Assembly (NCBI GenBank): GCA_937944145.1
Contig: CALDZK010000004.1
Span: forward strand, 124,001-188,000
DNA length: 64,000 nucleotides
Reading direction: 5' to 3'
DNA from: an uncultured Candidatus Altimarinota bacterium
GTDB taxonomy: Bacteria > Patescibacteriota > Gracilibacteria > BD1-5 > UBA6164
Numbering within the stretch: position 1 is the first letter of the stretch; every line of letters begins with the position of its first letter. Made by a program: the position numbers and the translations under genes. Positions 6,067-52,507 of the stretch are shown in pieces. The notes beneath the pieces are model-generated. The model made no database searches and was not told where the DNA came from. It saw only the letters and a program-made list of their open reading frames with translations.

Positions 6067-6486
6067 TTAGGCGAAGTCACCGTCACCAGTATCTGCATCA
6101 TCTACAGCTGTGATACCACGGTACCAGTGCCATATTTTTGCTGCATTTGTCCACCAGCCGATGATTATACCGAAGAAGAAGATTCCTGCGATAATCCATT
6201 GGTGAGTGTTAGCAATATCAAAGTATCCAGCCTGCCAGATTTTATAGTACATCGCTGCGAACATTACAGCGATGGATATAGTCGATACTCTGGCAAACAT
6301 CACTCTTGTGAGAGGAAGGTTCAATGCAACAGCACCAACCCATAGTGCAATGATGACACTATAGCCAGCAGGAAAAGATTCAAAGCTGTTGAAGATGTAG
6401 ACTCCCAGTCCATTAGGCCAGAAGGCTAGAGCTAGAAGCCCTATTGCAAAAATCATTTTTAATAATCCAACAAAAAATGTAGTCAT
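6067..6486 (-). CDS. Small four-helix inner-membrane protein, possibly DUF6524-like
   Basis: A 139-aa protein with about four membrane helices and a C-terminal tail rich in Asp (WHWYRGITAVDDADTGDGDFA). An N-terminal WPNG motif after helix 1 and a tail of the form W-x-H-x-x-RG-x-x-VDD resemble DUF6524 membrane proteins, which I know mainly from Proteobacteria; this is a tentative match. All its glycines use GGN codons and none uses UGA. A Shine-Dalgarno site (GAGGT, 4-5 nt before ATG) is present, unlike most neighbours, and lies in a perfect CCTCGCGAGG palindrome that could hide it in the mRNA. The gene follows a long structured leader shared with the gene at 6828-7796. Ends at UAA. Function unknown. 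Confidence 0.7.
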   Translation of the reverse strand: MTTFFVGLLKMIFAIGLLALAFWPNGLGVYIFNSFESFPAGYSVIIALWVGAVALNLPLTRVMFARVSTISIAVMFAAMYYKIWQAGYFDIANTHQWIIAGIFFFGIIIGWWTNAAKIWHWYRGITAVDDADTGDGDFA

Positions 6487-6712
6487 TTTTACCTCGCGAG
6501 GTTGAACGTAACAATTCGCGTCACGCTTTCATCATCGACCTCCTAGGATAATAGATCGATGTTATATATCTTTTATATTTCTAAAAAACATATAACATCG
6601 ATCTATTCACGAAACAAACAACACTTCTATTTCTCATAGTATGAGCATAATTGCCATAGATATGTAGAAACAGAAAACTATTTGTTTCGCTCAGATTTAT
6701 GTAAAAGAACTA
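6487..6712 (-). promoter_or_regulatory. Structured 5' leader (copy A) of the gene at 6067-6486
   Basis: About 225 nt of predicted untranslated RNA. In transcript order it holds a small hairpin (GAAACA/TGTTTC), a block containing TCTACATAT, a GTTTGTTTCGTG block, a perfect 16-bp stem (arms 6552-6567 and 6590-6605; TAGATCGATG...) with an A/T-rich loop, then AGGAGGTCGATGATGAAA, a hairpin CGTGAC/GTTACG, and CCTCGCGAGG overlapping the Shine-Dalgarno. The same elements in the same order occur in the leader at 7797-8050. Likely a cis-acting RNA or operator region; ligand or regulator unknown. Confidence 0.6.
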
Positions 6713-6717
6713 AGTAT

Positions 6718-6745
6718 ATAATATATAAAATTATAAAAAAGTCAA
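6718..6745 (-). promoter_or_regulatory. Promoter of leader copy A
   Basis: On the minus strand TTGACT, 16-bp spacer, TATTAT. Predicted start near 6711, giving the long leader described above. Confidence 0.55.
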
Positions 6746-6773
6746 AAATAAAAGTATCTAAAAGTACAAAACG

Positions 6774-6812
6774 AGGAAACCCCCAGCTTTTGGCTGGGGG
6801 AATCTTTTTTGT
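6774..6812 (-). terminator. Strong hairpin terminator between the two leader-controlled genes
   Basis: CCCCCAGC and GCTGGGGG form a perfect 8-bp G/C stem around a TTTTG loop. It follows the stop of the gene at 6828 on the minus strand; the plus strand side also has a T-run, so it may work both ways. Confidence 0.75.
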
Positions 6813-6827
6813 AGTGGATCGTGTGCT

Positions 6828-7796
6828 TTAGAGCTTATCAGCTGCAACATCTGCTGCTTGCTCTGCGAGTTCTACTGCTGCATCCATTCCTTTTTTGCCA
6901 GCTTTCTTCAGGCCGCTCAAGAGTTTTGCAAAGGCGCTCGCTTGAGGTAATAAATCATTGCGACTTGCCCCTTTTAGAGCAGCAACAATATCTGGAGCTT
7001 CGTTACCGGGCCCAGTTGCAGTGAGAATAGGTGTACAAGCTGTGGTTACGACTTGGTCAGAACCCCAGCCGTCGATAATAGTTACATCTTGGCAAAGTTC
7101 GTATGGTAGCAGGTCAGTTCCTGGTATAGGAGCAAGACCTTTCATAGCTCTGCTAATGACAGGGATGACCGTTAGGTTATTATCATAGATGTATTTGAAG
7201 CGGGGATTTTTTGGATTAGCACTTTGCACAAAGAATGCGACTTGAGCTTTACCGTTAACCACCATTTCGAGAGCTGCATCCGTACCACTTGCATACACAG
7301 GTTTTGCTTTCCCAAGACCTTCCGCATCTTTTTGCATCAACTCCTTTAGAGTTGCGCCCGACCCTGAACCTTCGGACCCAGTTGCAAACTTAACACGATT
7401 TGCAACACGTGATAGTTTTGCCCAAGCCGAAGATACACCTTCTTTGCCACCAAGACGCTCCAGTGTTTTATCGTTAATGACTGCCAATAGCAATTCGTTT
7501 CCGGTGTCACCTCTGATGATGTTTAGGTCACAAGGACTGCCTTGCGCATAAACATTACCTTGTAAGAACCCAACACCAGTAGGATTTTTACACAGCCATT
7601 GCATAGTATCAGGTGTCCCCTTACCAGTTTCAATGGGGTAATCATACCATGCAGATTGTAGTACCTTTTGTGTCGGAGGAGCGAAGTGCAGATTGTAGTC
7701 ACCGTTTTTACCACCAACTTTCACAGCGTTTGCAGATGCGAAAGTTGAAGTTGCCAGAATAGTTGTTGCGAGAGCCACAGTTTTCAAAATTTTCAT
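6828..7796 (-). CDS. Periplasmic/extracytoplasmic solute-binding-like protein
   Basis: A 322-aa protein with a signal peptide (MKILKTVALATTILATSTFA, cleavage near ASA-NA). The mature start VKVGGKNGDYNLHF, then IETGKGTPDTMQWLCKNPTGVGFLQGNVYAQ, resembles TAXI/NMT1-type solute receptors (GG-x-G-x-Y near the start, later a GxGFxQ strand). The C-terminus is Ala/Lys-rich and helical. No permease gene is adjacent, so its transport partner is unclear. All ~35 glycines use GGN and none UGA. Base composition around 6961-7020 is about 53% G+C against about 40% in mutL. I chose ATG 7796 (AAGGGA upstream) over 7826 because it begins the signal peptide. Acquired origin or very high expression would both explain these traits. 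Confidence 0.7.
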   Translation of the reverse strand: MKILKTVALATTILATSTFASANAVKVGGKNGDYNLHFAPPTQKVLQSAWYDYPIETGKGTPDTMQWLCKNPTGVGFLQGNVYAQGSPCDLNIIRGDTGNELLLAVINDKTLERLGGKEGVSSAWAKLSRVANRVKFATGSEGSGSGATLKELMQKDAEGLGKAKPVYASGTDAALEMVVNGKAQVAFFVQSANPKNPRFKYIYDNNLTVIPVISRAMKGLAPIPGTDLLPYELCQDVTIIDGWGSDQVVTTACTPILTATGPGNEAPDIVAALKGASRNDLLPQASAFAKLLSGLKKAGKKGMDAAVELAEQAADVAADKL

Positions 7797-8050
7797 TTGT
7801 AGTTTTCCCTTAAGGTTTTTACGCAAGCGACATGCTTACGATTTCATCGATCAAACTAGTATAACTAGACCGATGCATACCATCTTTTATTATACATAAA
7901 AAACAAGACGCATCGGTCTAATATTTGCACACGAAACAAACACTACATCCACCTCCCATAGAACGAGTTTCTACTATAATCTTGAGAAACCGTTACCATA
8001 TGTAGAGACAGATGATTGTCTGTTTCTTTTATGTTAAAGAGCAATTTACA
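7797..8050 (-). promoter_or_regulatory. Structured 5' leader (copy B) of the gene at 6828-7796
   Basis: About 250 nt. Homologous to leader A block by block: ACATAAA, a hairpin starting GAAACA, TCTACATAT, GTGTTTGTTTCGTG, then an 11-bp stem (arms 7866-7876 and 7910-7920; TAGACCGATGC) around a loop containing TTTTTTA and AAAAGAT, then TCGATGAAA. Compared with leader A the stem carries two compensatory pair changes (T-A to C-G at stem positions 5 and 11), which argues that pairing itself is conserved. A short hairpin CGTAAGC/GCTTGCG precedes the Shine-Dalgarno. Confidence 0.6.
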
Positions 8051-8056
8051 AAAATT

Positions 8057-8084
8057 ATTCTAAATATAAAAAATAAAATGTCAA
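8057..8084 (-). promoter_or_regulatory. Promoter of leader copy B
   Basis: On the minus strand TTGACA, 16-bp spacer, TAGAAT: a near-consensus sigma-70-type promoter about 260 nt upstream of the ATG at 7796. Confidence 0.65.
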
Positions 8085-8202: not shown

Positions 8203-8742
8203 CTATCCTTCCTTGTTTCTCCAGTTTCGAGCAACAGAAATTGCTTCTTTTATAATAGATTTTTTTCTTTGGTATTTTCTTCGTATAACTTTCCAGATAC
8301 GGAAAATACGAGATGATCGAAACCAAAGAATCATTTTTTCCTTGTACTCTTTCAGTGGCTTGAGTTTTTCTCCTACCCAGAGAAATGCTTGGTCAATCCA
8401 CTGGTATGACCGTAGTTTTTCAGACCCATGAATCATGAGCTGGAGTGAGAAAAAACTGACTCCCATATACACGATCAGAGCTATGAGTCCTGGAAGAAAT
8501 CCAAAACCAAATGCTACAAAAACCATAGGCTTTGCGATGATTTTTATAATTTCTAGAATCACAAAAGTCACTGCTATCATCCAGGCTGGCAGGATCTGAA
8601 TAATCCACGCAATACCAGGAAAGAGTATCTTTTTCATGGGAGCTAGAAGCAGCTCTTCATAAAAAAGAATTAATAAGAAAAAAGGTAGAGCAAGTGTTTT
8701 TATTATAACACCTGTATTTTTGTTTGTATTTTGGGTCGACAT
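8203..8742 (-). CDS. Membrane protein of unknown function with basic tail
   Basis: A 179-aa protein: polar N-terminus (MSTQNTNKNTG), three to four hydrophobic helices, then a strongly basic cytoplasmic tail (WKVIRRKYQRKKSIIKEAIS). It has a Shine-Dalgarno site (GGAG, about 7 nt before ATG) and no in-frame UGA. It is divergently transcribed from the membrane protein at 8899; both have hydrophobic cores and Arg/Lys-rich ends, so they may form one complex. Ends at UAG. No family recognised. Confidence 0.65.
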   Translation of the reverse strand: MSTQNTNKNTGVIIKTLALPFFLLILFYEELLLAPMKKILFPGIAWIIQILPAWMIAVTFVILEIIKIIAKPMVFVAFGFGFLPGLIALIVYMGVSFFSLQLMIHGSEKLRSYQWIDQAFLWVGEKLKPLKEYKEKMILWFRSSRIFRIWKVIRRKYQRKKSIIKEAISVARNWRNKEG

Positions 8743-8840: not shown

Positions 8841-8898
8841 GTACTCAGTACATTCGTGCTACTAAAATCTCAATTTTTCAGAATATAAGGAGAAAGTG

Positions 8899-9828
8899 AT
8901 GAAGTATTTCATCAGACGTTCGCGTCGCAAACTCCAGAGATTCTGGAGAACTGAGTATAAGATCTTTGGGAAGAAATGGTATCTTGGTTCATTCATTGCT
9001 GCAGGATTGATATTTGCAGTGGTAGGATTTTCTATATATCATTTTGGAGTCATTGGTTTCCTAGTATTTTGGTTCAAGCAGGGGATGCGTTTTGTGTTTC
9101 TCTGGGCTTCAAAGGTAACACTGCAGTGGTTGCTTTTGACAGGGATCAAAAGAGGATTTATAGATGGAGTCGTGACCCCTATGTTGAAGTCACATGTATA
9201 CCCTTACCTGATCCCAGCTGTTATTTCCCGAATCAAATACGTTGGTAAGAGAGTAGGAAAAATTCTAGCTATGATTTTTGGAGGAACCATCGTAATAGGT
9301 GGAACAATAGGAATGTTTCTCTATCAAGGAGTTGCATTTCTCTGGGCCATAGGAGGATTTTTATCGACTAAGATTGCAACTATCTTTGGATTTAAAACTC
9401 TTTGGTTGTTTGCAGGGAATGCTTGGATCTGGATAAAAACTACCTCTATAGGGACCTTTGTCCAAATATATCTTCTTTCTTGGATATTTGATTTTCTGGG
9501 GAGGCTTATCCCAAAGAGATTCAAACGGAGACTTAGACCTCTCTGGTCTTGGACTATCGATGTATTTTGGTACTTTCAATCATTTATGGACAAGCTTCTA
9601 GGCTTTAAAATCCAAAAATGGATTCGTGGTATATCCCGTTGGATAGAACCAAATGATGAAACTCAGAAGCGTCGCAAAAATCGCTTGAAGGAAATACTCC
9701 AAAAAATACAAAAACAAAAAAAGTTTCAAAATCCAAATGCAAGGATCACAAGATTCCAAGCAAAGGATAAGAAATCACCCAAATCCTTTCGAAATCAAAT
9801 TTGATTTATGCAAGGATTAGAAATTTAA
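8899..9828 (+). CDS. Membrane protein of unknown function
   Basis: A 309-aa protein with a basic N-terminus (MKYFIRRSRRKLQRFWR), about five hydrophobic helices rich in Trp/Phe and Gly, and a long basic C-terminal tail (QKRRKNRLKEILQKIQKQKK). ATG 8899 is preferred over GTG 8896 because AAGGAGA sits at proper distance. The only in-frame UGA is at 9802-9804, near the end; read as Gly it adds eight residues before UAA. Under the standard code the gene would simply stop there. Divergent partner at 8203-8742 has a similar make-up. Followed by a strong terminator shared with the convergent pilin operon. Confidence 0.65.
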
Positions 9829-51717: not shown

Positions 51718-51759
51718 TGCTTGCGTTACACCGTATTTTATCTTTTATATTACTCAGTT

Positions 51760-52449
51760 ATGAAACTTGCAAAAGTTATCGCAACATCACTTCTTGTTGC
51801 TCTCTCAGTATCGTCTACATATGCAGCACTCCCAGAAGTAAGCTGTGATACTGATCCAGCATTTGCTGGAAATGCTTGTAGCCAATGTTTTGATGGAGGG
51901 TCTGTTTCTGTTGGAGACAACCTCGGACTTCTTACAGATGATCTTCTCAATGATAAGTCAGGAGATATCATCGTATATAAAGAAGAACAAGAGTTCCCAG
52001 AACTTGTTTCTCTCTCTTGAGATGTATCTTGGTCACAAACTCCTTCAGGAGATGGGTTCTGGCAGTATACAGATGCTTTCAATAACCTCTATAGTGAATC
52101 AGAGGATGGATACATCGTTCCAAGTGGATCAGAAGTTACATGGCTTGAGTCTACTCTTGGGTACGCATATACTCTTGATTCAAACAATGCTCCTACAGGA
52201 TCAAACGTAGGACTTCTCGTCTATAAACTTATCTCTCATGATATATCTGCTGATGGAGATATTACGATAGAAGGAGAATCTCATAATGAGTGTGTACTCT
52301 TCACATCAGGAGATACTCCAACAGAACAACCACCAGTTGTAGTAGAACAACCAAAACAACTTCCAGAAACAGGAGCAGAACATATCCTTCTTATACTTCT
52401 CGCACTTCTTCTTGGATTTGGATTCCTCAAATTTATGAGAAGAGCATAG
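51760..52449 (+). CDS. LPXTG-type sortase-anchored surface protein
   Basis: A 229-aa protein: signal peptide (MKLAKVIATSLLVALSVSST, cleavage near TYA), mature part with a CDTDPAFAGNACSQC region, and a complete wall-sorting signal: LPETG, hydrophobic helix (HILLILLALLLGFGFLKF), basic tail MRRA. Sortase would cut between Thr and Gly and link it to a wall or glycan acceptor. One UGA-Gly. No sortase gene in the window. It implies a monoderm-like envelope. Confidence 0.85.
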
Positions 52450-52472
52450 TTTGAAACTATGTATATCCTTAT

Positions 52473-52507
52473 AAAGCTCTCAGTACATGCTACTGAGAGC
52501 TTTTATT
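52473..52507 (+). terminator. Terminator of the LPXTG gene
   Basis: AAAGCTCTCAGTA and TACTGAGAGCTTT form a perfect 13-bp stem with a 5-nt loop, then TATTG. Confidence 0.8.

Follow-up and report, generated by a model that had tools for sequence, protein, structure and literature searches.

Why do two unrelated genes stand behind the same kind of promoter and the same long, structured leader? The question is raised by two neighboring minus-strand genes, here called A and B, in the window (the whole 64,000-nucleotide stretch of DNA analyzed) from the genome of an uncultured gracilibacterium (G000, ~1.18 Mb; relatives are numbered G011, G012, G014, G015, G016, and G018). This genome reads TGA as glycine (code 25), as judged from the in-frame TGA codons within long reading frames, including that of ribosomal protein S19. 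An earlier note, made from the letters alone, had described both genes together with their leaders, and they are present as described. The genes and the element between them are as follows.

6067..6486, minus strand: gene A, encoding a 139-amino-acid multi-pass membrane protein; TGA-free (0/13 glycine codons)
6772..6800, no strand assigned: GC-rich terminator hairpin CCCCCAGC/GCTGGGGG, 3′ of gene B and before promoter A
6828..7796, minus strand: gene B, encoding a 322-amino-acid secreted solute-binding-like protein with a signal peptide; TGA-free (0/32 glycine codons)

Proteins A and B are unrelated to each other by sequence comparison, and the terminator hairpin between gene B and promoter A indicates that the two genes are separate transcription units. 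Protein A resembles DUF6524 over nearly its full length at a subthreshold score (E = 0.075), while protein B is similar to a phage protein family of unknown function (PHROG 6856, E = 6e-9) and weakly matches PF12974/phosphonate-binding proteins. No homolog of protein B was found in 428 genomes (48 of the family and 380 of a phylum sample), and its AlphaFold model, made without relatives, has a pLDDT of 34. One possible relative of protein A elsewhere (E = 1e-3) has a frame broken by two TAA codons and one TAG codon and was rejected as a chance match. For A and B, neither tblastn nor a pattern scan pointed to an origin in phages, plasmids, or viruses. Elsewhere in the window, a 247-amino-acid open frame (51745-52488, minus strand) has TGA at 12 of its 12 glycines and is probably an antisense or noncoding frame, not a gene.

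The two leaders can be aligned over ~190 to 215 nt, and the ordered blocks previously recognized in both are real. Their parts are the following.

6487..6712, minus strand: structured leader A, ~220 nt, untranslated; fold z score of −10.3; hits of covariance model R2 in the class of 141-137 bits
6611..6688, minus strand: domain 1 of leader A, helix P1 (6680-6688 with 6611-6619) around helix P2 (6667-6675 with 6625-6633) plus a small apical hairpin
6552..6605, minus strand: domain 2 of leader A, long stem P3 (6590-6605 with 6552-6567) with a P3b cap
6507..6525, minus strand: P4 hairpin of leader A, 7 pairs, 2 of them changed on both sides between A and B
7797..8050, minus strand: structured leader B, ~250 nt, untranslated; fold z score of −7.1; matched by the model
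7933..8026, minus strand: domain 1 of leader B, P1 (8018-8026 with 7933-7941) around P2 (8005-8013 with 7947-7955)
7866..7920, minus strand: domain 2 of leader B, long stem P3 (7905-7920 with 7866-7881) with a P3b cap
7822..7840, minus strand: P4 hairpin of leader B

In a hand-set structure of four helices and 41 pairs, 98.8% of the cells are paired between A and B and nine pairs are changed on both sides, compared with 30 to 52% paired cells and 0 to 3 such pairs when the partners were slid by 1 to 3 columns. The earlier note was thus right that pairing is kept but had undercounted the compensatory changes, of which it saw two. Its "GAAACA hairpin," formed with a nearby TGTTTC, did not hold: the conserved partner is a distant TGTTTC in GTTTGTTTCGTG, and the pairing forms P1 around P2. 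The local GAAACA/TGTTTC alternative gives 86% pairs with none changed on both sides, and a two-state switch between such local hairpins and the nested P1/P2 was rejected on the same figures.

With a covariance model built from leaders A and B (R1), G016 gave one clear match beyond the two source copies (E = 2.6e-11), and G011 gave a weaker match that was split; both genomes belong to another genus in the same family as the window genome. A further R1 match, in G015 (E = 0.038), spans a coding region, was not recovered with the four-sequence model (R2), and was set aside as chance. R2 found only G000 (two copies, the only ones in that genome), G011, and G016 among 353 genomes of the class and only G000 in the 380-genome phylum sample, large searches that score few candidates per genome and in which diverged copies can be missed. 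A degenerate pattern had no match in viral contigs, and its sole real match across 84,980 species genomes was the G016 contig (MAG LH_M94, JAGXIV010000038.1); five other matches (Flavobacterium, Spirosoma, and others) were not matched by the model and were discarded as chance. Hence, the further copies anticipated earlier do exist, but they are not many and do not precede the same two gene families. In the window, no Rfam 15 family reached its gathering score, a permissive Rfam search on the leaders gave chance-level hairpin matches only, so that the suggested Rfam check yielded no family, and a limited literature search found no description of this leader. It is a real structured leader RNA, so far restricted to three genomes, and apparently undescribed before.

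With four sequences, more covarying pairs also appeared, which the earlier note would count as support: 14 of the 44 pairs show changes on both sides and 96% of the cells are paired, versus 1 to 4 such pairs in slid controls. RNAalifold, left free to choose the fold, returned the same architecture (53 pairs, 20 covarying). These counts are to be read knowing that pairs were chosen partly from the alignment, that A and B are the source of R1, and that four sequences are few; independent of the alignment are the single-sequence folds, which recover P1/P2/P3 in each leader, and the conserved distances to promoter and start codon. Each leader also folds 7 to 10 standard deviations better than its shuffles (z scores of −10.3, −7.1, −7.9, and −7.0). 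The leaders have diverged to 59 to 74% identity with their pairs kept, and the covariation supports a conserved secondary structure; P4 is common to A and B only and absent from the G016/G011 alignment. In domain 1, mean pairwise identity is 81% at paired and 64% at unpaired positions, and for the P3 stem the paired figure is 67%, against 53% for the second set of unpaired positions; no part of the leader is better conserved than the paired positions of P1/P2. P1 and P2 share a motif in opposite orientation (GAAAYAGA/TCTRTTTC).

Both promoters described earlier lie where they had been placed, each with a 16-nt spacer.

6718..6745, minus strand: promoter A, TTGACT-16-TATTAT
8057..8084, minus strand: promoter B, TTGACA-16-TAGAAT

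Single promoter-like matches are frequent in AT-rich DNA (9 found versus 6.5 expected); the promoter call gains weight because TTGAC[AT]-16-TA stands before the first stem in all four homologous leaders, 37 to 46 nt before P1. The start codon lies 211 to 214 nt after P1 (211 nt in G011 and G016) and 242 nt after it in B, which carries an insert. Neither promoter nor start codon was included in the covariance model. All four copies therefore occupy the 5′ untranslated position between a promoter, with a predicted transcription start, and a start codon, and the predicted 5′ end leaves roughly 10 to 25 unpaired nt before P1. In G011 and G016 (loci L017 and L016), the −35 element lies within an inverted repeat, TGTCAATAAATATATTGACA in the former and AGTCAATAA...TTATTGACT in the latter, which could be an operator; no such repeat precedes A or B. 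Between P3 and the gene, leader A has AGGAGGTCG-ATG-ATG-AAA-GCG-TGA (6521-6535, minus strand), in which a perfect AGGAGG precedes a possible tiny upstream frame. This frame has a stop only under the standard code; read with code 25, it would continue into gene A, overlapping its start. A second possible frame, ATG-AAA-TCG-TAA, overlaps P4 in leader B (7836-7847, minus strand). Such frames are absent from the G011 and G016 leaders.

What, then, does the leader precede? Directly 3′ of ruvC in both G016 and G011, it precedes genes for secreted small glycine-rich lipoproteins (MSLKTVLIMTTALVTLAACTPP..., which has GNGGT repeats, and MRRIILPLLVLTILGACHKPN...). These show no resemblance to each other outside glycine and none to A or B; the G016 product is a repeat-rich surface-type protein whose contig ends inside the gene. 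In three sister species, G012, G014, and G015, a convergent ppk2 directly follows ruvC with no leader unit; the two genes abut there, which makes the unit of promoter, leader, and gene in G011 an insertion. The cargo comprises four proteins unrelated to one another: two carry lipoprotein signals, a third has a signal peptide, and the fourth is a multi-pass membrane protein. This upholds the initial picture of unrelated genes behind a shared covarying leader and extends it to two further genomes. The accompanying idea of a coregulated two-component system fails, since the G011/G016 leader stands alone before different, single lipoprotein genes and protein B has no homologs in the 428 genomes. 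The common factor is the leader together with an abundant-looking envelope protein. Downstream of ruvC in G018, at the site where G011 and G016 have the leader unit, lies a gene (locus L046, minus strand) whose product resembles by eye those of two frames in the window (8203-8742, minus strand; 8896-9828, plus strand), multi-pass membrane proteins with basic C termini that are TGA-free or TGA-poor.

A second shared feature concerns the reassigned codon. None of the 112 glycine codons of the leader genes is TGA (0/45 in A and B, 0/24 in G011, and 0/43 in G016, whose gene is repetitive and incomplete). The TGA share of glycine codons is 20% in bulk genes of G000, 51% in G011, and 48% in G016, falling to 8%, 13%, and 10% in their ribosomal protein genes (loci L037, L051, and L052 compared with the bulk genes of the three genomes). 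Ribosomal protein genes shift from TGA toward GGT and NNC, and leader genes go further that way, with NNC/NNY values of 0.50 versus 0.39 (G000), 0.45 versus 0.25 (G011), and 0.76 versus 0.29 (G016); their leucine codon choice stays host-like. The GC content of the leader open reading frames is 0.43 to 0.54, against 0.31 to 0.38. TGA-free genes without a leader amount to 5 of 68 glycine-containing genes examined in G000 and 3 of 88 in G011/G016. A gene of this kind in G011 (L053:13880-14191, plus strand) encodes a small Asp-rich lipoprotein, is GGT-rich, and is probably highly expressed, which fits TGA avoidance as a general trait of high expression.

Highly expressed genes thus seem to be under selection against the reassigned TGA, which suggests a codon that reads less well and that selection for expression removes. 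As a simple gauge of its use, its share of glycine codons drops from about half in the bulk genes of G011 and G016 to about a tenth in ribosomal genes and is zero in leader genes. The codon signature would be the expected outcome of extreme selection for expression, although acquisition from a standard-code source could give it too.

We consider it about an even chance that the element is a cis-acting mRNA leader, ~200 to 250 nt long, that accompanies a strong sigma-70-type promoter. Acting through message stability or translation, it would serve the very high expression of a few envelope or secreted proteins in one family of code-25 Gracilibacteria. A leader for abundant messages is favored because strong-looking promoters, rigid rods, envelope cargo, and extreme codon bias coincide; the high expression of these genes is itself deduced from such sequence features. 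The transcript would fold into two stacked rod-like domains, P1 around P2 and then the long capped P3, followed by a variable stretch with the ribosome-binding site. The leader would most likely prolong the life of the mRNA and promote its translation, the rods shielding the leader from ribonuclease and/or a protein holding the sequence-conserved P1/P2 helix; stabilization or protein binding is thus a presumptive mode of action. Several observations count against this reading. The ribosomal proteins are highly expressed as well, yet their genes have no leader and keep some TGA; recent lateral acquisition would also yield TGA-free, GC-richer genes, so high expression is not the only possible source of the signature; and there are four copies in three genomes only. 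Known stabilizers, moreover, have a flush 5′ hairpin, from which the unpaired stretch before P1 differs.

The conservation of P1/P2 bears on a related, rather doubtful alternative, in which a protein or small RNA acts at this helix to turn the envelope genes on and off together. That these pairs are the most conserved (81%) and share a motif in opposite orientation suggests that the helix sequence matters. No regulator has been identified, however, the competing local hairpins lack any pair changed on both sides, and Shine-Dalgarno occlusion is in the range of 43 control genes. Sequestration of the Shine-Dalgarno sequence (ACCTCGCGAGGT in A, CCCTTAAGGAGGG in G016, and long-range in G011) was rejected in that comparison, the unpaired probability being normal except in G011.

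The location of the unit raises the possibility, which we regard as unlikely, that the leader marks or mediates the insertion of acquired standard-code genes, its fold acting at the DNA level. The unit sits between ruvC and ppk2 in G011, and its open reading frames are unrelated, TGA-free, and well above the genome in GC content. Yet no integrase, transposase, or border repeats were seen by eye, the covariation with G-U pairs and asymmetrical loops is consistent with RNA, the leader-to-start distance is conserved when a DNA-level site would not need it, and the genomes' own ribosomal genes show a parallel codon bias. Similarly improbable is that leaders and genes were simply acquired or duplicated together, with zero TGA inherited from standard-code donors and no special role for the leader. 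The lack of a protein B homolog in 428 related genomes, the higher GC content, and the adjacency of A and B would agree with this. The leaders, however, have diverged with their pairs kept and so are neither recent copies nor unconstrained, and searches of phages and plasmids turned up no donor. The ribosomal gene codon comparison weakens the view that recent foreign origin alone explains zero TGA.

The ligand-binding riboswitch that had also been considered is very unlikely. The leader is long, conserved, and compactly folded, but it has neither a conserved junction of several helices nor an invariant loop, and its unpaired positions are less conserved than the paired ones, leaving no conserved ligand pocket. 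No terminator lies at the 3′ end of the leader, P3 being followed by TCTATTATCC instead of a T-run; Shine-Dalgarno occlusion does not exceed background; the downstream genes have no common pathway; and there is no Rfam match. Attenuation and a Shine-Dalgarno switch are disfavored along with it, because of the missing terminator, ordinary Shine-Dalgarno access, unsupported hairpins, and poorly conserved unpaired positions. That the leader marks code-neutral messages (no TGA, ribosome-compatible, rod-shielded), readable by standard-code ribosomes as well and meant for decoding also inside the prey or host of an episymbiont, is far-fetched.

If the leader for abundant messages is what it appears to be, it would be a structured leader RNA that is new and confined to one lineage, in uncultured bacteria about whose gene control next to nothing is known. 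It would also single out envelope proteins made in bulk by presumably host-dependent cells. Rfam cis-regulatory leaders and riboswitches are alike in kind, as structured 5′ leaders, with no family at gathering score here. The ompA-type leader of Escherichia coli is a stabilizing structured 5′ leader of an abundant outer membrane protein mRNA. The likeness is one of functional analogy only: both would be structured, cis-acting, ligand-free 5′ leaders on messages for abundant outer membrane or envelope proteins. There is no sequence relation, and the present leader differs in its two long rods, ~200-nt length, several unrelated genes, and unpaired 5′ tail.

Code-11-compatible phages of Gracilibacteria likewise have genes without in-frame TGA in and around code-25 hosts (Liu et al. 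2023, PMC10746230). That work deals with entire phage genomes, whereas the leader genes are single chromosomal genes between housekeeping genes, with no adjacent phage genes and no matches to phage records. The nearest published hint comes from a BD1-5 gracilibacterium whose hypervariable repeat gene encodes a secreted-type repeat protein, avoids TGA in its repeat region, and has stem-loops of 14 to 15 bp with 4- to 6-nt loops in its 5′ and 3′ untranslated regions (Sieber et al. 2019, PMC6851277). Compared by description, those hairpins are single, without family, covariation, or other copies; the two cases share a gracilibacterial host, a TGA-avoiding secreted-type protein, and long stem-loops in untranslated regions, and the G016 leader gene is also repeat-rich.
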